From NCBI RefSeq assembly GCF_033343995.1, contig NZ_CP137573.1, forward strand, positions 62,001 to 126,000: a stretch of DNA of 64,000 bases, written 5' to 3'. Positions 14,988-28,375 of the stretch are shown here, one piece after another. Position 1 is the stretch's first letter; each line of letters begins with the position of its first letter. Source of the DNA: Streptomyces sp. HUAS YS2. GTDB lineage: Bacteria > Actinomycetota > Actinomycetes > Streptomycetales > Streptomycetaceae. The notes beneath the pieces are model-generated. The model saw only the letters and a program-made list of their open reading frames with translations, made no database searches and had not been told where the DNA came from. The position numbers and the translations under genes were made by a program.

Positions 14988-16124
14988 GTGACCGACCCGC
15001 ACCGCCCGATACTCACCGCCGCCCAACGGGCCGATGACGCAATGGACTTGTTCAACCGCGCCTCGGCGAAGCTGCGGCGGGCGGTGCCGTTCCACTCGGC
15101 GGTGTGGACGGCGGCCGACCCGCAGACCGGCCTGATCACGGCGCCGATGCTGGTGGAGGACCTCGGCTCCGGGGGGAGCTGCGCCGCGTACTGGGAGAGC
15201 GAACTCCTGGAGGAGAACGTCCTGCCGTTCCACGAGCTGGCCCGGGCGACCGTACCGGCAGCCGGGCTGCGCGCGGCCACCGGCGACCTGCCCGCCCGCA
15301 GCACCCGCTTCCGGCGCCTCCTGCGCGATCAAGGCGTGTACGACGAACTCCGCGCCGTGCTGAGGATCGACGGCCGGCCATGGGGCCTGGTCAGCCTGTT
15401 CCGCACCACCACCGCGTTCCGCCCCGACGAGATCGCACTCCTCGCCGGCCTCTCCCGCCCGCTGGCCGGACGATTACGCGACCTGGCGCGCCCGCCCCGG
15501 TCCACACCACACACCGACGCACCCGCGCCCGGGCTGATCCTCTTCGACGAATCCGGCCGGGCCACATCGATCAACGACGAGGCACGCCATCACCTGGCAC
15601 TACTGCCCGAAGGACCCTCGTCTCCTTCACCCCTGGGAGCCCAGCTGCCCATCTGGGTGATCGGCGTGGTCCTCCAGGCCCGCGCCATCGCCGACGGACG
15701 CGACCACGGCAACGCCCGGGTACGCATCCAAACCACCGAAGGCCGCTGGCTGGTCTGCCACGCCTCCAGCCTGACCGGCCCCGGCGGCACACCCGGACCG
15801 GTCGCCCTCGTCATCGAGCCGGCGACACCCGCCGACCTCGCGGTCCTCATCGCCGACGCCTACGCCCTCACACCACGCGAACTGCAGATCACCCAACTCC
15901 TCGCCCGCGGCATGACCACCACCGACATCGCCGCCACCCTGGTCATCTCACCCCACACCGTCCGCGACCACCTCAAATCCGTGTTCACCAAGGCAGGCGT
16001 CTCCAGCCGCGGCGAACTCGTCGCCCGCCTCTTCACCGACCACTACTGGCCCGCCCTGCCCACCCCCACACCCCTCCCACGCCCCGACCGGCCCCCCGCC
16101 CACGCACGGTTCCCCCACATCTGA
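14988..16124 (+). CDS. GAF-like sensor with LuxR-type DNA-binding domain
   Basis: 378 aa from GTG 14988, with GAAGGAGG upstream. The first 160 residues look GAF-like (AVPFHSAVWTAAD ... WGLVSLFR). A middle PAS-like segment follows (LILFDESGRATSINDEA). The C-terminus (about 300-350) is a LuxR helix-turn-helix: LTPRELQITQLLARG, TTTDIAATLVIS, HTVRDHLKSVF. It has no receiver domain, so it probably responds to a small molecule or redox signal. It is the likely regulator of the divergent FAD protein and of itself. After the helix-turn-helix there is a proline-rich tail. Confidence 0.85.
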   Translation: MTDPHRPILTAAQRADDAMDLFNRASAKLRRAVPFHSAVWTAADPQTGLITAPMLVEDLGSGGSCAAYWESELLEENVLPFHELARATVPAAGLRAATGDLPARSTRFRRLLRDQGVYDELRAVLRIDGRPWGLVSLFRTTTAFRPDEIALLAGLSRPLAGRLRDLARPPRSTPHTDAPAPGLILFDESGRATSINDEARHHLALLPEGPSSPSPLGAQLPIWVIGVVLQARAIADGRDHGNARVRIQTTEGRWLVCHASSLTGPGGTPGPVALVIEPATPADLAVLIADAYALTPRELQITQLLARGMTTTDIAATLVISPHTVRDHLKSVFTKAGVSSRGELVARLFTDHYWPALPTPTPLPRPDRPPAHARFPHI

Positions 16125-17526: not shown

Positions 17527-18849
17527 ATGCGACGCGCCATCGTGATGGGCGGCAGCTTCGCCGGCCTCAACGCAGCACAGGCACTCAGCCAGCACGTTGA
17601 GGAGGTTGTCGTGCTGGAGCCAGACGACATCGGCGAGGACGGTCTCGGGGAACGCAGCCCTCACCGGACTCAACTGCACGCTCTGCTGGCCATGGGCCAC
17701 ACACAGATCGAGAGCCGCTTCCCCGGCATCACCCAGGAACTCGTGGAGGCAGGAGCCCGGCTGGGTCAGGGACGCGACGTTCAGTTCTACGTCGACGGCG
17801 TCTGCAGACCTCCCGTCGACGGCATCCAGATGCTCGGAGCCAGCCGCCCCTTCCTGGAAGCGGCGGTGCGCAGGCGGGTCCTCGCCCTGGGTAACGTCCG
17901 CCTGGTCCACGGACACGCGCGGGGTCTGACCTTCGACGGCGAACGCGTCTCCGGTGCGCGTTTCTCCGAAGCCGGCTCTCCGCACCCCGAGCAGATGCTT
18001 GACGCCGACCTGGTGGTCGACGCGATGGGGCGTTCGAGCAGGGTTGCAACGTGGCTTGAGGAGGCGGGCCGTGGGCGGGTGCCGACGGACCGCATGCGCG
18101 TCGACCTCGGCTACGCCACAGCGTCGTTCACACGGGGCGACGAACTCGGCAGCACGGTCATCGCCCACTCGGCCCCGGGCCCCGCCTCCAACTATCAGCC
18201 AGGGCTGACTGAGCCCGGAGCGCTCGCAGCAGTGGAGGGCGGCCGATGGAGTGTGGTTGTCGCGGGCTACGCCGATCAGAGGCCCACGGATGATGTCGAG
18301 GACTTCCTCGCACGCATGCGGCGCTGCGTGGGTCCCATCCGCACCGTGGCACAGGCGTGCTCCATGATCGGCAAGGTCGAGACGTTCAACTTCCGTGAGA
18401 GTCAGCGTCGTAACTACCACGGCTGTTCCCATCTCCCGGGCGGGCTCGTCGTCCTGGGCGACGCTCTCGCGTCGGTGAACCCCGTCTACGGGCAGGGGCT
18501 CACCCTTGCAGCACTGCAAGCACACTGCCTTGACCGCTACCTCGGCTCCGGAGCTGACCTCCACGAGCCTGCGACGGCGTACTTCCGGCGCGCCTCTGCT
18601 TTCGTCGATGCGGCCTGGCAGTTGTCGACGACGGCAGACCTTGCCCAGCCCCACGTTCTCGGCCCCTATCCGCCCGGCTACCGCCTGATGAAGTGGGCCG
18701 GCGACAAGATCACCGGTGCCTCCGTCACCGATCCCGAGATCAATGACCTCTTCATGAACGTCGTCCACATGAAGGTGCCTCCGCGGCAGCTGACCTCGCC
18801 TGCGGTGCTTCTGCGAGCCCTCCGAGTTGGCGGCAGGCGCGATGCGTAG
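17527..18849 (+). CDS. FAD-dependent epoxidase/monooxygenase
   Basis: 440 aa from ATG 17527; GGGGGA lies about 11 bases upstream. The N-terminal FAD fold is MGGSFAGLNAAQAL. The segment PHRTQLHALLAMG, then FPGITQELVEAGA, is typical of the LasC/Lsd18-like and related hydroxylase/epoxidase family. The FAD-binding GDALASVNPVYGQG lies at about residue 315. Such enzymes use NAD(P)H and O2 to epoxidise or hydroxylate isoprenoid or polyketide substrates. The downstream squalene/phytoene-synthase-like gene overlaps its stop, so the substrate is probably an isoprenoid made by that protein. The exact reaction is unknown. Confidence 0.8.
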   Translation: MRRAIVMGGSFAGLNAAQALSQHVEEVVVLEPDDIGEDGLGERSPHRTQLHALLAMGHTQIESRFPGITQELVEAGARLGQGRDVQFYVDGVCRPPVDGIQMLGASRPFLEAAVRRRVLALGNVRLVHGHARGLTFDGERVSGARFSEAGSPHPEQMLDADLVVDAMGRSSRVATWLEEAGRGRVPTDRMRVDLGYATASFTRGDELGSTVIAHSAPGPASNYQPGLTEPGALAAVEGGRWSVVVAGYADQRPTDDVEDFLARMRRCVGPIRTVAQACSMIGKVETFNFRESQRRNYHGCSHLPGGLVVLGDALASVNPVYGQGLTLAALQAHCLDRYLGSGADLHEPATAYFRRASAFVDAAWQLSTTADLAQPHVLGPYPPGYRLMKWAGDKITGASVTDPEINDLFMNVVHMKVPPRQLTSPAVLLRALRVGGRRDA

Positions 18850-19780
18850 CTGGAGCTCCACCCTCGACCGCGCTGCCGTCGACACACCGTCGCTGAGGGC
18901 CGACTTCAGTGAGCAGCGAAAGCGTGTCGCCGAACGCTCCCGCGCCGAGTACATGGCGGCCCGGCTTCTCCTTCCCACCTCGCTCCTCCCCGACGTCGTG
19001 GCGGTCGTTGCCTTCATGCACGACTCGGACGACCTACTGGACCGCGCGCTGCCCGGCGAGGGGATCAGCCGTCTCGCCAGCTGGGAGGAGCAAACGCGAG
19101 AGGCGTTGCAGAGTGGCGATTCGCCGGACTCGACATTGCGCTGCCTTGTCAGCGCATGCGGGCGCCATCCTGGGCTCCGAGACCGGGTGGAGAGCTTCCT
19201 CCGCGGAGCGGCCGTTGAAGCCTCCTGGGTGGGATTCGGCTCGGAGGCTGAGTACAAGGAGTACGTCGCTGCCTACTCGCTCCCCGCCTTCATGCTCTCT
19301 GCATGTCTCCTCAGGCAGGGCTCCGAGGACGCAGCAGCGTACGAGGGCCATTGCCATGAGCTCATCGATGCGATGCAGAGGATCGACTTCCTCAGCGACC
19401 TGGCCGAGGACGTGGCTTCGGGACGACTGGGCATCAGCCTCGAAACTCTCGACTGTCACGGTCTGGCACCGGAGGACCTCAAGCGGGGCCTGTCGCCTGA
19501 TTCATCGGCGTTGGACCAGCTGGTTCGGCAGCAAGTCGAACGCGCTGAGGAATCCCTTGCGGCTGCACGTGGCCTGACAACCATGGTCAACCCGGACTGC
19601 GGACCATTCGTGTCGGCCCTCTTCGAGGTCCAGGAGCTGAGAGCCCACGCGGTTCGACGGGCCGGCGCCTTGGTCCTCGTCGCGCCGCCCGACATCTCCG
19701 GTCTGAGACTCGCTCGGCTGTTGATCAAGTACCTGGCGAAGGCGATATGGAAGCGTGCGGCTACGGCTGGCGGTCAGTGA
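18842..19780 (+). CDS. Squalene/phytoene synthase-like trans-prenyl synthase
   Basis: 312 aa. ATG 18842 overlaps the upstream stop by 8 nt, so the pair is translationally coupled. The first aspartate-rich motif is DSDDLLD (residues 61-67), the second is DLAED (186-190) followed by VASGRLGI, and SRAEYMAARLLLP matches the substrate-binding helix before it. These are the Mg2+-binding motifs that let the family join two prenyl diphosphates head to head. Which diphosphate is used cannot be read from sequence. No cyclase, desaturase or hpn genes are nearby, so this is not an ordinary hopanoid or carotenoid cluster. Confidence 0.8.
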   Translation: MRSWSSTLDRAAVDTPSLRADFSEQRKRVAERSRAEYMAARLLLPTSLLPDVVAVVAFMHDSDDLLDRALPGEGISRLASWEEQTREALQSGDSPDSTLRCLVSACGRHPGLRDRVESFLRGAAVEASWVGFGSEAEYKEYVAAYSLPAFMLSACLLRQGSEDAAAYEGHCHELIDAMQRIDFLSDLAEDVASGRLGISLETLDCHGLAPEDLKRGLSPDSSALDQLVRQQVERAEESLAAARGLTTMVNPDCGPFVSALFEVQELRAHAVRRAGALVLVAPPDISGLRLARLLIKYLAKAIWKRAATAGGQ

Positions 19781-21528: not shown

Positions 21529-23244
21529 TCAGTGCTGCGCCGCCCCAGCCAGGGACAAGTCCCAGTACGCGGCGTACCGGCCGCCGCGTCGCAGCAACTC
21601 GTCGTGGCTGCCCTGTTCGACCACCCGCCCGGCGTCGAGGAAGGCGACGTGGTCGGCCCGGCGCACGGTGCCCATGCGGTGCGCCACCATCACCACGGTC
21701 CGGCCCGCCATCAGCTCCTCGATGCCGGCGTGCACGGCCGCCTCGTTGACCGGGTCCAGGGCCGAAGTGACCTCGTCGAGCAGCACGATCGGCGCGTCCT
21801 TCAGCAGCGCGCGGGCGATGGAGACGCGCTGCCGCTCGCCGCCCGACAGCAGCGCCCCGCCCTCGCCCACGTGCGCCGACCAGCCGCCGGGCAACCGCTC
21901 GATCACCTCGTCGAGACGGGCCGCGGAGGCCGCGGCCCGTACCTCGGCGTCGGTGGCGTCCGGGCGGCCGAGGCGCACGTTCTCCTCGATCGTGCCGTCG
22001 AAGAGGTAGACGTCCTGGAAGACGATGGCGATCCGCGCCATCAGCGCCGCGGTGTCCATCTCCCGTACGTCCACGCCACCGATCCGCACCACGCCCGCCT
22101 CGACGTCGTAGAAGCGGGCGAGCAGCTGCAGCAGCGTCGTCTTGCCCGCGCCCGACGGCCCGACGACGGCGAGCCGCCGGCCCTCGGGTACGGACAGCGT
22201 CACCCCGTCGGCGACCGCGCGTTCTCCGTGCCGGAAGGTGACCGCGTCGAACACGACGTCGTGACCGGCCGGTTCGCGCGGCTCGCGAGGCTCCGGCAGC
22301 GGCTTGGTGGCGAGGACGTCTTCGAGGCGGGTGAGTTCGGCGCGGGCGGCGCGGATGCCACCACTCATCTCGGCGAGGGACAGCAGCGGGTCGGCGCAGC
22401 GGGCGGCGAGTACGAGGACCGCAAGCACCTCGGCCGCGCCGGCGTGCCCGCCGAGGGCGAGGTACGCACCGAGTGCGAGCAGCGCGGTGAACACCGCCTG
22501 CACGGTGACCGCGAGACCCAGCACACCTGGCAGCGCCGAAATGGTGGAGCGATGCGAGGCGCGGCGCAGTTCCTTCAGGGAGTCGTCCAGCAAACCGAAT
22601 CGCTCACCGGTGCGGCCGCCGGCGCGCAGCACCGGCTGGGCCTGGAGGTACTCGATGACGCGGCCGGTGGCCGCCCGCTCGCGTTCCACGCGCTCCGTGT
22701 CGGTCGCCGTCGTCGCGCGGGCCGCGCGCAGCTGAACCGCGGCCACCAACGGCACGGCGGCCAGGGCGGCAAGCCCCATCTGCCAGTTGAAGGCGAGCAT
22801 CACGGCGACGATCGTCAGCGGCGTCACGCAGGCGGAGATGAACGGCGCCAGCAGGTGCGCGATCACGCCCATCGCCTGCAGCACGCCCTGGCTGGCGAGG
22901 ACGGACACCTCGCCGGTGCGGCCGGGTTGATACCAGCCGACGGGCAACCGGGCGAGGTGCTCGCCGAGGCGCTCGTACATGCCGTGCAGCATCGTCGTGC
23001 CCACGCGGAATCCGGAGCGGTCGCTGACGTACCGCAGCACCGCATAGACCGCGACCGCCGCGCCGAAGGTGGCCAGCCAGGGCCGGGCGTCCTCGGGTGT
23101 GCTGCCGAACAGCGCGCGCAGCACCGGCACCAGCAGGGCGTACGACAGTCCCTCGACGAGGGCGGTCGCCGTCATCAGGGCGACCGTGCGGCGCACCGGC
23201 CCGGCGTACTCCTGGCCGAGCACACGCAGCAGTGTGCTGATCAT
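21529..23244 (-). CDS. ABC transporter, permease-ATPase half (second of pair)
   Basis: 571 aa. The N-terminal 300 residues form the six-helix transmembrane domain; the ATPase follows with Walker A GPSGAGKTT (362-370), Q-loop Q410, signature LSGGE (466-470), Walker B IVLLDE (486-491) and switch AHR. The ATG at 23244 overlaps the upstream gene's stop as ATGA, so the two half-transporters are co-made and should form a heterodimer in the membrane. The layout plus an AraC regulator recalls the IrtAB/YbtPQ pairs that import iron-siderophore complexes. A multidrug or peptide exporter is the alternative. Confidence 0.85.
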   Translation of the reverse strand: MISTLLRVLGQEYAGPVRRTVALMTATALVEGLSYALLVPVLRALFGSTPEDARPWLATFGAAVAVYAVLRYVSDRSGFRVGTTMLHGMYERLGEHLARLPVGWYQPGRTGEVSVLASQGVLQAMGVIAHLLAPFISACVTPLTIVAVMLAFNWQMGLAALAAVPLVAAVQLRAARATTATDTERVERERAATGRVIEYLQAQPVLRAGGRTGERFGLLDDSLKELRRASHRSTISALPGVLGLAVTVQAVFTALLALGAYLALGGHAGAAEVLAVLVLAARCADPLLSLAEMSGGIRAARAELTRLEDVLATKPLPEPREPREPAGHDVVFDAVTFRHGERAVADGVTLSVPEGRRLAVVGPSGAGKTTLLQLLARFYDVEAGVVRIGGVDVREMDTAALMARIAIVFQDVYLFDGTIEENVRLGRPDATDAEVRAAASAARLDEVIERLPGGWSAHVGEGGALLSGGERQRVSIARALLKDAPIVLLDEVTSALDPVNEAAVHAGIEELMAGRTVVMVAHRMGTVRRADHVAFLDAGRVVEQGSHDELLRRGGRYAAYWDLSLAGAAQH

Positions 23245-25034
23245 CGGGCCTCTTCCCCTTCCGTCACACCGGCGTGGATCTTCCAGAACTCGGCGAACGC
23301 GCCGTTTCGCGCGAGGAGTTCCGCGGTCGTGCCCCGCTCCACGATCGCGCCGTCGCGCAGCATCACGACGGTGTCGGCGTCGGCGATCGTCTCCAAGCGG
23401 TGGGCGATGACCAGCGTCGTCCGCTTCTCCCGGGTCTGCGCCAGCGCCTCGCGCACTGCCTGCTCGGTCTGCGGGTCGGCGAAGGCGGTGGCTTCGTCGA
23501 GTACCAGGACGGGAGCGTCCGCGAGCAGGGCACGGGCGATCGAGACGCGCTGCGCCTCGCCGCCGGAGAGGCGGGCGTCCTCGCCGATCACCGAGTCGTA
23601 GCCGCGGGGCAGTTCGACAATCCGGTCGTGGATGCTCGCCAGGCGGGCGGCACGGACAACGGCGTCGCGGTCGGCTTGCGGGACCGCGAGGGCGATGTTG
23701 TCCGCGACCGAGGCGCGCAGCAGCCGGACGTCCTGGAAGACGAAGGACACCCGCCGGTACAGCTCCTGGCTGCCCACTTCACGCAGGTCGACGCCGCCGA
23801 GGAGCACGGAGCCGTGCGACGGGTCGTAGAACCGCGGCAGCAGCTGCACCAGCGTGGACTTGCCGCTGCCGGACGGCCCGACCACGGCCGTGGTCGTCCC
23901 CGGCTCCAGCACCAGGTCGATACCGCGCAGCACCTCGCGCCCAGCCGCGGCGTCCTCGCGCCCCGCGGCACCCTCGTACCCGAAGCGGACGTCCCGCAGC
24001 TCCACCCGGTGTCCCTGGGGCGCCACCGGCCGTACGGGCTCGGGCAGCGACGGCTCGGCGAGTACGTCCCGGATGCGGCCGACGGCGCGCCGCGCGGCCT
24101 GCAGGTCGTCGAAACCGTGCCCGAGCGCGGCCACGGGCGCGGTCAGGCCGAGGCCGAGAAGGATGAAGGGCAGCAGGTCCGCCGGGGCCAGCCCGCCCCC
24201 GGTGATCCGGTACGCGCCGCCGACCAGCACCGCCAGCAGCACGAACGGCGGCGACAGTGCCACCTGCATCCCGGCGGCGACCCCGGAAAGACCGCGCACC
24301 ATCCGGTAGAAGCTCCGGGTGAAGTCGTCCACCGCGGTACGGAACCTGCCGTGCGCCCGCTCCGACCCGCCGAACGCCTTCACCACCGCGATGCCGTGCA
24401 CGAACTCGACCACCGACGCCGAGATCCGCCCCATCGCGGCGTCGAACTCCTTCTGCTCGCGCAGCCGCGCAGGGGTCATCATCAGCGGCACCAACGCGAC
24501 CGCCAGCAACACGGGGATCAGCGTGATCAGCGTCAGCCGCCAGTCCACGGTGAAGAGGTAGCCGAGCGAGACCAGCGGCACCACGAAGGCGGAGACCAGC
24601 TCGCCCGGCGTGTGCGCGATGAACGGGTGCACGGCGCTGACGTCCTCACCGACCAGCTTCGCCAGCTCCCCGTTGCGCCGCCGCGCCAGCCAGCCGATCG
24701 GTACCCGCCCGAGCCGCGCGGCGAGTTGCCGGCGCAGCGACAGCTGCACCCGGGTGTCGAGGAGGTGCCCGACGCCGGACGAAGCGGCCGTGAACAGCAG
24801 CCGTACGAGCAGGCCTGCCGCGCCCGCGATCACGACGTCGCGCACGTGCCCGTCGTCGGCCGGCCCCGACGCCAGCAGCGTACGGCCGAGCTCGACGACC
24901 GCGAGCAGCGGCGCCAGGCCGGCGACAGCGCCGATGACCTGCAGGACGACGACGGCGGCGAAGCTGCCCGCGTACGGGCGCAACAGACGAGCCACGCTCG
25001 GTGGTGGCGGCGCGGTGATTCCGGTGGAAGTCAT
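23241..25034 (-). CDS. ABC transporter, permease-ATPase half (first of pair)
   Basis: 597 aa from ATG 25034, with GAAGGTGAG upstream. The transmembrane domain covers about residues 20-310. The ATPase has Walker A GPSGSGKST (386-394), signature LSGGE, Walker B VLVLDEAT and an AHRLE switch. Both sites of the pair look catalytically complete. It lacks the N-terminal siderophore-interacting domain of IrtA, so siderophore import is only one option. It is first in a two-gene operon and divergent from the AraC regulator at 25123 with an 88-bp shared promoter region. Confidence 0.85.
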   Translation of the reverse strand: MTSTGITAPPPPSVARLLRPYAGSFAAVVVLQVIGAVAGLAPLLAVVELGRTLLASGPADDGHVRDVVIAGAAGLLVRLLFTAASSGVGHLLDTRVQLSLRRQLAARLGRVPIGWLARRRNGELAKLVGEDVSAVHPFIAHTPGELVSAFVVPLVSLGYLFTVDWRLTLITLIPVLLAVALVPLMMTPARLREQKEFDAAMGRISASVVEFVHGIAVVKAFGGSERAHGRFRTAVDDFTRSFYRMVRGLSGVAAGMQVALSPPFVLLAVLVGGAYRITGGGLAPADLLPFILLGLGLTAPVAALGHGFDDLQAARRAVGRIRDVLAEPSLPEPVRPVAPQGHRVELRDVRFGYEGAAGREDAAAGREVLRGIDLVLEPGTTTAVVGPSGSGKSTLVQLLPRFYDPSHGSVLLGGVDLREVGSQELYRRVSFVFQDVRLLRASVADNIALAVPQADRDAVVRAARLASIHDRIVELPRGYDSVIGEDARLSGGEAQRVSIARALLADAPVLVLDEATAFADPQTEQAVREALAQTREKRTTLVIAHRLETIADADTVVMLRDGAIVERGTTAELLARNGAFAEFWKIHAGVTEGEEAR

Positions 25035-25122
25035 GCGCTCACCTTCACCGCGCCCACGACCCGCTGGATTGGACAAATGTTCCGTCCGGGCGCTGCGTCG
25101 GGCAGGCCCGTAGCATGGACGC

Positions 25123-26031
25123 ATGTCAACTGCCGTGCGCCAGCGCGTCTCTGCCCCCGCGTGGCAGGTCACGCGCCCTGTCCGGCCCAGCCGCGTACCC
25201 GGCGTCGTCCTGGCGGGGCTCCGCGACCGCGGCCCGGCTCCGGTCGACCACCGGCTCGACCCGCACCCCGTGCTGACGCTGGCGCTGCCATGCGGCGATG
25301 CGGCGCCGGGCATCGACGAGTCGACGGGGCGGCAGCACCGCGGCAGCCTTGTCACCGGGCTCGGGTTCGGCGCAGGCGGTGCGGCACGGGTACGGGCCGC
25401 GAACGTCGAGTGGATGCAGGTGCGCCTGTCCCCCGCCATCGCGCACGCCGTGTTGAGCGTGGGCCCTGCTGAGCTGGAGAGCTCCGTGGTGACCCTGGAC
25501 GACCTGTGGGGAGAGCGGCGGGCAGCCCGGCTGCGCGAGCAGCTGGCCGAGGCCGCCTCGTGGGAGGAACGCTTCGCGCTCGTCGAAGCGATCCTCGCCC
25601 GGCTGTCCTCCGCGGGGCCCGCCATCGAGCCGGAGCTGGCCTGGGCCTGGGACCGCATCATCGCCAGACAGGGCCAGGTGCGGGTCGAGGGGCTGGCCGA
25701 CGAGCTGGGCTGGAGCCGGAAACGCCTGTGGTCCCGCTTCCATGCGCAGCTCGGCATGCCGCCCAAGCGCGCTGTGAAGCTCGTCCGCTTCGACCGTGCC
25801 GCCACCCGCCTGGCCGGAGGCCAGGAGGTGGCCAGCGTCGCGGCCGACTGCGGCTACGCCGACCAGTCACATCTGCACCGGGACGTCCTGGCGTTCACCG
25901 GTGTGACCCCCGCAACCGTGGCCGGCGGGTCGCTCGTCGCAACGGCCGACATGGCGTGGATGGACCACGTGCCACGCCTCCCGGCGCGCTGGGGCGATGC
26001 CCCGGCCTCCCGCATGCGCTGCGGCGCATAA
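25123..26031 (+). CDS. AraC-family transcriptional regulator
   Basis: 302 aa. The N-terminal 150 residues are the sensing part. The C-terminal AraC domain (about 190-270) shows the first helix-turn-helix (VEGLADELGWSRKRLWSRF), the linker LGMPPKRAVKLVRFDRA, and the second helix-turn-helix VASVAADCGYADQSHLHRD. It is divergent from the ABC transporter operon and probably controls it. Regulators of this position commonly respond to the transported ligand. The start at 25123 is the first ATG, with a GTAGCATGGACGC leader. Confidence 0.85.
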   Translation: MSTAVRQRVSAPAWQVTRPVRPSRVPGVVLAGLRDRGPAPVDHRLDPHPVLTLALPCGDAAPGIDESTGRQHRGSLVTGLGFGAGGAARVRAANVEWMQVRLSPAIAHAVLSVGPAELESSVVTLDDLWGERRAARLREQLAEAASWEERFALVEAILARLSSAGPAIEPELAWAWDRIIARQGQVRVEGLADELGWSRKRLWSRFHAQLGMPPKRAVKLVRFDRAATRLAGGQEVASVAADCGYADQSHLHRDVLAFTGVTPATVAGGSLVATADMAWMDHVPRLPARWGDAPASRMRCGA

Positions 26032-26324: not shown

Positions 26325-27566
26325 TCAGGCCGCATCACGTGTCTGGTGGCTCATGCGTTCCTGCATGTGGCCGAAGAACTCCTCCGGTGGGGTCATTCCC
26401 GCTGTGACTCTGACGAACTCGTCCGAGGCCGAGGGGCTCTGGGACGTGGCGAGGAGCAGCTGCTCCATCTCAGGGGGTGGTGGTTCCATCGTCGCGAACT
26501 CGGCTGTGAACTCGTACATGCTCGTGACCTGCGCGTCCCTCGCCTCCTGGGTCGCCCGCATCGCTTCGTCGAAGGGCCGGCGGCCGGTGAGCACGTCGTC
26601 GAGTGCGTGGGCGCACCGCTCCGCGTCGCGGAAGGCGTCCTGGATGCCCTGGGCGGTGATCGGGTCCTTCAGGTATCCGGCGTCGCCGACCAGGGCCCAG
26701 CCGGGGCCATAGGGTTGGCGGAAGTAGTTGGGGACGGCCGTCCCGACGAACCGTTCGGTCCGCGTGGCCCGCGCGATCCGCTCGGCGAAGGCCGGCGCAC
26801 GGGCCAGCGTGGCGTGGTAGTTGCCTTCCACGTCGCCGCGCTTGGCTTCGAAGTCACGCATGGGCCAGCCGGTGATGACCATCGCCTGGTCCTCATTGGT
26901 GGGCCACGCGGCGAAGGCGCAGTCACCGCGGTCGTAGGCCTCGAACCTTCCGTGCAGGGGCAGCCCGGACCAGTACGTGTAGTAGTAGGCGTTGATCTTC
27001 GGCTTTTCCGTGTAGCCGGCGGCACCGGTCGCCTTGGCGACGGACGAGTGGAGTCCGTCCGCGCCCACGGTGATTCGGGCGTGGTCGACGGAAGTGCTGC
27101 CGTCCTTGCTGTGGCCCTTGATCCCGGTCACCGTGGGGCCCTCGAACAGGATCTCCTCGACGGTGAAACCCTCGCGCACCTCGGCACCGGCTTCCGCGGC
27201 GGCGTCGACGAGGATCTTGTCGAGGACCGTGCGGCGCGGCGCGTACGAGGCGGCGAAGCCGTCTCCGGCCGGGGACCCGACGATGGCGAACGGTCCGAGG
27301 TCGTACGAGTAGGTGTCGATGGGCGGACATCCTGTCGCCACGACCCGCTCCAGCAGTCCCCACCGGTCCAGCGCGGCCAGGCCCGGCGGATGGATCAGGT
27401 GCGTGGAGATCGTGTCGCTCGGGAACGTGGCCCGGTCGACCAAAAGGACCCGGTGACCGAGTCGGGCCAGAAGCATCGCGGTCGGCGCGCCCGCGCAGCG
27501 TGCGCCGACGACGATCACGTCGTGGTGGTGGATTCCGCCGCCGGCTGGGCCGGGCGTGTCGCTCAT
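26325..27566 (-). CDS. FAD-dependent monooxygenase (PHBH-fold)
   Basis: 413 aa from ATG 27566 (GGTGAGAG upstream). The FAD fold reads VIVVGARCAGAPTAMLLARL. GADGLHSSVAKATGA and GDAGYLKDPITAQGIQDAF are the other two signatures of the p-hydroxybenzoate-hydroxylase-like group, which hydroxylates aromatic or polyketide rings with NAD(P)H and O2. No partner genes indicate the substrate. It is monocistronic. Confidence 0.85.
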   Translation of the reverse strand: MSDTPGPAGGGIHHHDVIVVGARCAGAPTAMLLARLGHRVLLVDRATFPSDTISTHLIHPPGLAALDRWGLLERVVATGCPPIDTYSYDLGPFAIVGSPAGDGFAASYAPRRTVLDKILVDAAAEAGAEVREGFTVEEILFEGPTVTGIKGHSKDGSTSVDHARITVGADGLHSSVAKATGAAGYTEKPKINAYYYTYWSGLPLHGRFEAYDRGDCAFAAWPTNEDQAMVITGWPMRDFEAKRGDVEGNYHATLARAPAFAERIARATRTERFVGTAVPNYFRQPYGPGWALVGDAGYLKDPITAQGIQDAFRDAERCAHALDDVLTGRRPFDEAMRATQEARDAQVTSMYEFTAEFATMEPPPPEMEQLLLATSQSPSASDEFVRVTAGMTPPEEFFGHMQERMSHQTRDAA

Positions 27567-28375
27567 TGCTCTCACCTGCCGATCGGACGCCTCGCGAGAG
27601 GGCGGCCGGCCGGGCGAACCGAAGGTGCCGGCCATCGCCGCTGCACGGTGCACGTCCCTTTCTACGCTAGAACACCTTCGGAACGCGGTCTCGGCGGGCG
27701 GGCCCGGACAAGACGGCCGCAACCCCGCGCCGGGCACGGCAGGGCCGAATGCTTCGATCTCACGCTTCGAGGTCGCCGCCGTTCTTGATCCACGTGAAAA
27801 CACAACCTGCGATGTCCGAGTCCAGCATCACCAGGTCGAAGACGGCACGGTCCGCGCCGGCTCTTCGATCGATCGCGCAGTAGCCCCCACCACCAGGAGC
27901 TGCCCTGGAGGAACGATCCGTCATCCCAGGCAGCCGGACGCATTCACGGAAGTGCGGATGGTCGGCTCGCGCGTCGAGGCAGCAGCCCGGTGTAGCGGGT
28001 CACGTCCGGCGTCGTTGCTCGTGGTTATGGGCTCGAGGACGCACCAGCCGACTCCCTTGGTCGATTCCTGACCTTCGGCGCTCCCGCACTCGTCCAGGTC
28101 GCGTTGAGGGCGTCTGGACTGGTGGTGATCCGGTCCCAGGCACGACGTCGCAACCAGAGCTGAGCCGGGGTTCCTCACGTTCGTGGAGGCGGACGGGAAG
28201 GACGCGGCGGCGCCATACCTGAGCCACGGCTGCCGCTCGCAGCGAGCCAACCAGGGCCCCCTCAGAGACTTTCGCCGCCCGCCCCAAAGATCACCCGCCG
28301 TTAACGACCGCGTTCCGATGACTTCGGCAAGTCCCCATAGCGTTCACGACGTTCACATCGCTACTAAGGGGTAAC
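27567..28375. other. Long stretch without a firm gene
   Basis: About 800 bp holding at most a 54-aa minus-strand frame at 27760-27924 (ends DIAGCVFTWIKNGGDLEA, no ribosome binding site) and other weak frames on the minus strand around 28000-28290. The final 80 bp, AT-richer with AAGGGG, form the promoter and ribosome binding site of the phytase gene. Confidence 0.4.
27760..27924 (-). CDS. Possible 54-aa protein or gene remnant
   Basis: The ATG at 27924 opens a protein-like sequence, with AGADRAVFDLVMLDSDIAG, then CVFTWIKNGGDLEA at its end. There is no Shine-Dalgarno site and no in-frame upstream start that looks better. It may be the tail of a degraded gene. Confidence 0.25.
   Translation of the reverse strand: MTDRSSRAAPGGGGYCAIDRRAGADRAVFDLVMLDSDIAGCVFTWIKNGGDLEA

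Follow-up and report, generated by a model that had tools for sequence, protein, structure and literature searches.

The window studied here, a stretch of 64,000 nucleotides covering 62 to 126 kb of the 7.88-Mb single-contig genome of Streptomyces sp. HUAS YS2, contains two overlapping genes that encode a flavin monooxygenase (the flavoprotein) and a squalene/phytoene synthase-like (SQS-like) protein, a prenyl enzyme of the phytoene-synthase-like (PSL) type. The two genes are a nonchance pair. Since they usually stand beside a three-gene regulatory set in related bacteria, they look like a real, uncharacterized small-molecule pathway, in which the likely role of the SQS-like enzyme is to attach or release an isoprenoid chain, to which its partner probably adds epoxides. 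Each enzyme type is known; in the open-licence literature, a scope outside which most subscription journals lie, we found no description of the pairing, of its five-gene setting, or of a product, no published pathway combining a PSL enzyme with a MonCI-like epoxidase, and no characterized cluster holding the pair, a check named in a preliminary description of this DNA.

17527-18849, + strand: flavin monooxygenase gene, 440 aa; ATG at 17527, stop codon ending at 18849
18842-19780, + strand: SQS-like gene, 312 aa; ATG at 18842, stop codon ending at 19780
18842..18849, + strand: overlap of the two genes, 8 nt, reading ATGCGTAG

The N-termini of homologues favor both ATG starts over the longer mechanical open reading frames (ORFs) that begin at TTG 17272 and TTG 18827 and, together with the sequence itself, bear out the 8-nt overlap given in the preliminary description. 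Both frames and every motif tested are intact in the window pair, which is 38 to 67% identical to its relatives.

Linkage of the two genes and their companions

We searched 394 genomes of the bacterial family with thresholds of E ≤ 1e-10 for the SQS-like protein and E ≤ 1e-70 for the flavoprotein, which gave matches in 188 and 30 genomes, respectively. Both genes are present in 21 genomes, a modest excess (Fisher p 0.009), and in 13 of these 21 they lie within 3 kb of each other, where ~0.015 would be expected by chance. Direct adjacency is the rule (12 of 13), with five tandem pairs (genomes G000, G217, G336, G306, and G192) and seven divergent ones (G005, G013, G016, G017, G023, G028, and G035), while the genes of G388 are 2.7 kb apart; in a fourteenth genome, G202, the distance is 12 kb. 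The earlier proposal that the two genes are placed for joint production is supported.

Inspection of the neighbors of adjacent pairs across genomes, likewise suggested in the preliminary description, revealed an XRE regulator, an ImmA/IrrE-like M78 peptidase, and a DUF6545 membrane protein beside the pair in 10 of the 13 linked loci. Among 33 unlinked SQS-like loci, L038 alone has the full three-gene set (Fisher p 7e-7 against the linked loci), the unlinked loci being mostly the best-scoring ones and not a random draw. None of the three genes, intact or decayed, was found in the window (best E values of 2, 7.2, and 0.13 for XRE, M78, and DUF6545), and DUF6545 was not found anywhere in the genome of the window strain. 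The window thus holds two of the five genes: the term “minimal cassette” fits the window copy but not its relatives, where 10 of 13 linked loci carry all five.

Kinship and motifs of the two enzymes

The flavoprotein is clearly MonCI/Lsd18-like, and alkene epoxidation is predicted for it from this membership. MonCI of monensin biosynthesis and Lsd18 (LasC) of lasalocid biosynthesis are its best matches in both sequence and fold over nearly the full length, and they are its nearest solved relatives (phmmer E 2.9e-36 to MonCI, or 3e-56 with a profile of the flavoprotein family). An AlphaFold2 model with a predicted local distance difference test score (pLDDT) of 91.7 retrieved only Lsd18 and MonCI at Foldseek ranks 1 to 9 (TM 0.85 to 0.89), followed more weakly by the brominase Bmp2 (TM 0.68) and human squalene epoxidase (TM 0.65 to 0.69). 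Identity to MonCI and Lsd18 is only 26 to 27%, and the Pfam FAD_binding_3 match remains below threshold (21.2 bits versus a cutoff of 22). Each of the twelve flavin-motif residues tallied is conserved in at least 31 of 32 aligned flavoproteins; they include the following.

17548..17565, + strand: glycine motif GGSFAG for binding of flavin adenine dinucleotide (FAD); Gly8 in 32/32, Ser10 and Gly13 in 31/32 aligned sequences
17677..17679, + strand: His51, 32/32; aligned with the His of AHLLW in MonCI
18457..18498, + strand: GD motif and NPVYGQG segment; G311, D312, N318, P319, G322, and G324 each in 32/32

Judging from the sequence pattern, His51 probably equals His71 of Lsd18, which stacks on the flavin according to a passage of PMC12144862; the FAD motifs and, by this reading, the flavin-stacking His of MonCI and Lsd18 are thus conserved in the window protein. 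Passages of the literature also bear on substrates. MonCI converts farnesyl 4-hydroxybenzoate to a triepoxide and raises linalool epoxidation when overexpressed (PMC10560226), Lsd18 converts farnesyl acetate to a bisepoxide (PMC12144862), and crystals 9udb and 9udd are recorded as MonCI with farnesyl acetate and with its monoepoxide. Such enzymes act on farnesyl esters and can therefore act on prenyl chains. While MonCI and Lsd18 act on polyketide polyenes within polyketide synthase (PKS) clusters, the partner of the window flavoprotein is an isoprenoid synthase-like enzyme. No PKS was found among ten other window proteins scanned between 8.2 and 29.7 kb, the other window ORFs being unscanned; the longest window ORF (1147 aa) encodes a Vps10-like protein.

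The SQS-like protein passes the Pfam SQS_PSY cutoff (98.2 bits versus 26) and belongs to the squalene/phytoene synthase superfamily by this domain, by its predicted fold, and by two Asp-rich motifs, DSDDLLD and DFLSDLAED, both intact as had been noted. The preliminary description of an epoxidase-type FAD enzyme beside an isoprenoid synthase-like partner is supported. The carbazole prenyltransferases LvqB4 and CqsB4 rank at the top for the SQS-like protein in phmmer, profile, Foldseek, and VIA-align comparisons, with profile E values of 1.8e-34 for LvqB4 and 5.9e-29 for CqsB4, followed by 8e-21 for HpnC. In VIA-align, the predicted model, built on 3 sequences and with a pLDDT of 84, gave Z scores of 27.2 for LvqB4, 25.8 for CqsB4, and 25.0 for the canonical enzyme 5iys. 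The protein is therefore of PSL type in the sense of lying nearer to LvqB4 and CqsB4 than to head-to-head enzymes, by a margin that is small for the fold. In a FastTree phylogeny rooted on 5iys and a CrtM-like enzyme, the SQS-like family, LvqB4/CqsB4, and other comparators split with a support of 0.967 from a set made up of HpnC, HpnD, and five more proteins of the NxxRD type.

HpnC/HpnD, CrtM, and the phytoene synthases share superfamily, fold, and Asp motifs with the SQS-like protein, whose family departs from NxxRD at the second motif in 46/46 homologues and which misses the equivalog cutoffs and stands apart in the tree. The NCBIfam cutoffs of the head-to-head equivalogs HpnD and HpnC are missed (65.8 of 278.6 and 52.1 of 250.5 bits), while, as a control, the genome's own HpnD (316.6) and HpnC (274.1) pass them. 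A hopanoid/squalene route was set aside as a first choice because these genes, at 1.33 Mb and far outside the window, pass the cutoffs that the SQS-like protein misses; a carotenoid route was rejected with two CrtB-type NCBIfam models matched at just 26 of 500 to 550 bits. The N-terminal signature LDxAGIxDPxLR was tried as a mark of PSL proteins and dropped, as it also occurs in five NxxRD-type comparators (L216, L218, L221, L224, and L227). These five are themselves unassigned, and the two that were scanned, L216 and L224, fall below every HpnC, HpnD, and CrtB cutoff.

19028..19042, + strand: first Asp motif, D63-D67 (DDLLD); both outer Asp residues in 44/46 homologues
19376..19426, + strand: second Asp motif, QRIDFLSDLAEDVASGR; Asp182 in place of the NxxRD Asn, no Arg ahead of Asp186

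Loss of the Asp motifs across homologues, named earlier as a possible objection, was not seen: the first motif reads DxxxE instead of DxxxD in 2 of 46 (L072 and L073), and at the diagnostic position of the second motif, where NxxRD has Asn, Asp is found in 46/46 homologues. The Arg is present in 0/46. LvqB4 and CqsB4 read QLLDFIWDLRED here, so that both changes, and an Asp-Phe within the motif, are common to them and the SQS-like family. The NxxRD form is present in 5iys, the CrtM-like 8is6, the genome's own HpnD, L158, and the five further comparators. It is not universal among head-to-head enzymes, since EHLQD is found in the genome's own HpnC and NHMQD in 4hd1; conversely, L213 keeps it (TNLIRD) within the prenyltransferase-like tree group, where L215, L219, L220, and the fusion proteins described below carry D at the Asn place of L213. 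The second motif was accordingly rejected as a clean divider. As HpnC departs from NxxRD and L213 keeps it, the state of the motif is a suggestive pointer only; with Asp in all homologues and the Arg in none, head-to-head coupling by the SQS-like protein appears unlikely.

A putative two-step pathway and its alternatives

We favor, at roughly even odds (about 0.5), a two-step isoprenoid pathway of prenyl transfer to an unspecified acceptor followed by epoxidation of the chain. The SQS-like protein would ionize an allylic prenyl diphosphate with the help of Mg2+ bound by its two Asp motifs. The prenyl group would then pass to an acceptor other than a second prenyl diphosphate, most likely, as in PSL enzymes, a small aromatic compound or another nucleophile; the use of a second prenyl diphosphate, as in head-to-head enzymes, is made less likely by the alteration of the second motif. 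The MonCI/Lsd18-type flavoprotein would subsequently epoxidize at least one C=C bond of the chain through a flavin hydroperoxide, to yield an epoxy-prenylated small molecule. The XRE, M78, and DUF6545 proteins would probably regulate or sense the pathway in most linked relatives; the window strain has the enzymes only. The pairing of the genes, their conserved linkage, the kinship of both enzymes, the state of the motifs, and the composition of the locus are shown above; the order of the steps, the acceptor, the chain length, the epoxidation, and the role of the pair are what we infer.

Published PSL enzymes provide part of the precedent. In passages of PMC7466098, PMC6173783, and PMC10156859, their acceptors are carbazoles or tryptophan-containing diketopiperazines, and their donors dimethylallyl diphosphate or farnesyl diphosphate (FPP). 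NzsG, DmtC1, and NozPT are placed in the literature in the PSL group with LvqB4 and CqsB4, the two members compared with the window protein. Where the passages name partners of PSL enzymes, these are NzsA, a cytochrome P450, or DmtA1, a membrane cyclase; no MonCI-type epoxidase is among them. Flavin epoxidases are described as the usual primers of meroterpenoid cyclization in PMC13307353, which fits prenylation followed by epoxidation, but the cyclases of those pathways were not recognized at the window locus.

Several observations weigh against a joint two-step pathway. Of 40 fetched SQS-like loci, 33 lack a flavoprotein gene within 3 kb, and 9 of the 30 flavoprotein genomes have no SQS-like match at E ≤ 1e-10. 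Among flavoprotein stretches from named genomes (the best 80 of 579, some ending at contig ends), 75 of 79 have no SQS-like match, and many of the flavoproteins are just 32 to 48% identical; the four stretches with a match are those of Streptomyces filamentosus (L097) and Wenjunlia tyrosinilytica (L100), one with an SQS fragment (L096), and one with a distant 50-bit match (L158). As most homologues of each gene stand without the partner, the two could act apart. The SQS-like protein is, moreover, only 21 to 25% identical to LvqB4 and CqsB4, whose Z score lead over the canonical enzymes is small; branching within the prenyltransferase-like group is weakly supported (0.346 and 0.602), and the NxxRD form of L213 falls within that group. 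On the acceptor side, none of the genes beside the window pair could be recognized as providing an aromatic acceptor, and, in contrast to the PSL enzymes, the pair has no recognized carbazole, cyclodipeptide, or membrane-cyclase gene next to it.

The best rival dispenses with an acceptor: the SQS-like enzyme would pass the prenyl cation to water or cyclize it, acting like a phosphatase or a terpene synthase as proposed for YisP, and farnesol, geranylgeraniol, or a terpene would then be epoxidized. Two genes would be enough for such a route, consistent with the lack of a recognized acceptor gene nearby, and simple farnesyl esters are substrates for relatives of the flavoprotein. YisP is a weak relative of the SQS-like protein (profile E 7.6e-7, Z 18.8) but ranks well below LvqB4, CqsB4, HpnC, and phytoene synthase, and we regard this route as possible but less likely than prenyl transfer to an acceptor.

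We consider it improbable that the pair consists of unconnected remnants of an acquired larger locus that is being lost, with no joint product in this strain now. The absence of any trace of XRE, M78, and DUF6545 from the window, and of DUF6545 from the genome, would agree with this, as would the position of the pair at 80 kb of 7.88 Mb, close to one end of the contig, and its GC content at third codon positions (0.80 and 0.78), which is below that of most linked relatives. Decay is also seen among relatives: in a linked locus (L076:8836-10480), the flavoprotein is split over two frames and adjoins a 77-aa SQS-like remnant, and L096 retains a short SQS piece. Against this stand the intact frames and motifs at the identities given above and the retained overlap.

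An epoxidized head-to-head prenyl product, as envisaged in the preliminary description, with two molecules of FPP or geranylgeranyl diphosphate joined 1'-1 and epoxidized as in the squalene/oxidosqualene route, is quite improbable: superfamily, both Asp motifs, the squalene-synthase fold, and the remote fold match of the flavoprotein to human squalene epoxidase accord with it, but the Asn and Arg that characterize NxxRD are missing from the second motif, carbazole prenyltransferases are the closest relatives with solved structures, the scores are far under the NCBIfam cutoffs, and HpnC and HpnD are already encoded elsewhere in the genome.

If prenyl transfer followed by epoxidation is right, it would join PSL-type prenyltransferases and polyether-type epoxidases, enzyme types that have been studied apart. 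Polyether-type epoxidases take farnesyl esters in vitro, and no natural terpenoid role is named in the passages on these relatives. The pair would provide a short two-gene route to epoxidized prenyl compounds, indicate that Streptomyces and its relatives make epoxy-prenylated metabolites of an unrecorded class, and offer an experimental handle on the common XRE-M78-DUF6545 sets.

Companion genes and surroundings of the pair

DUF6545 is present in 115 of 150 family genomes, with up to 7 copies per genome. In 40 DUF6545 loci (L173 to L212), profile matches revealed M78-type genes in 33, XRE-type genes in 31, and all three genes in 21, and the partner enzymes of the set vary: MonCI-like flavoproteins occur in 2 of the 40 loci and P450-like proteins, assigned by eye only, in 3. 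As DUF6545 is common and its partner enzymes vary, XRE-M78-DUF6545 is a general set, and its combination with the enzyme pair belongs to one branch; elsewhere in the family it stands beside other enzymes. L082, L083, and L085 have the flavoprotein with all or part of the set and no adjoining SQS-like gene. HExxH is found in 17/17 examined copies of the small M78-type protein, although one of three copies scanned falls just under the Pfam Peptidase_M78 cutoff (21.7 of 22) and the other two gave no match. The two DUF6545 (MAB_1171c family) proteins scanned pass both Pfam and NCBIfam cutoffs, and a hydropathy count gives 4 to 7 membrane spans, six in most of 15 copies.

No functional study of the set was found in the open-licence literature, and passages of PMC13118837 hold nothing on it; for MAB_1171c, the single paper found reports a biofilm effect in a mycobacterial knockout. 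A signaling role of the pair is possible. It is tempting, if rather far-fetched, to imagine the five-gene locus as a self-contained terpenoid hormone system, shared by Streptomyces and related genera, with an epoxy-prenyl signal made by the two enzymes, a DUF6545 receptor, and an M78 peptidase that would cut the XRE repressor; XRE-M78-DUF6545 sets beside other oxidases would then be sister systems with other ligands, and the window strain would make the signal but have no receiver for it. Wenjunlia tyrosinilytica carries two XRE-M78-DUF6545-flavoprotein sets within 14 kb (L058:1858-14873, also seen as L100), the second flavoprotein being 34% identical to the nearest query and having no SQS-like gene directly adjoining.

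More distant relatives of the SQS-like protein are combined with a cis-prenyltransferase. Seven loci encode an N-terminal SQS_PSY and a C-terminal cis-prenyltransferase domain in one open frame, whereas L213, L230, and L231 have them as two neighboring genes.

L214:1901-3517, L217:2019-3671, L220:1774-3651, L222:848-2725, and L223:2098-3762: SQS_PSY/cis-prenyltransferase fusions recognized with Pfam, 538 to 625 aa
L225 and L226: further fusions recognized by tblastn, with open frames of 643 and 572 codons

The arrangement hints at the cis-prenyltransferase as the source of the prenyl donor in the fused and adjacent loci. By tblastn of the window and the fetched loci, such a partner was found only with these distant relatives and not with the window family.

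The ten window neighbors scanned comprise two regulators (one LuxR and one AraC-type), two flavoproteins, two ABC transporters, the Vps10-like protein, a Rid-type protein, a phytase, and a 167-aa protein that matched nothing. The isolation of the pair from other terpenoid genes, claimed in the preliminary description, thus holds in that none of the ten is an assigned terpene-pathway enzyme and that the prenyl synthases located by whole-genome searches are, like HpnC and HpnD, far outside the window (trans type at 1.32, 2.74, and 3.45 Mb; cis type at 2.97 and 5.43 Mb); for desaturases, hopene cyclase, and the isopentenyl diphosphate pathway, which the claim had included, no search was made. One neighboring flavoprotein (26325-27803, − strand) has a geranylgeranyl-reductase superfamily model as its best NCBIfam match, at 78.6 bits versus a cutoff of 158.8. 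The LuxR-type regulator (14988-16124) scores 373 bits with the BagY/FevT model (cutoff of 700), and no matching cluster was recognized nearby; BagY and FevT are members of the bagremycin and ferroverdin clusters. Two adjoining genes for fused membrane-ATPase ABC transporters and the AraC-type regulator gene lie at 21529-25805 (− strand) and 25123-26031 (+ strand).

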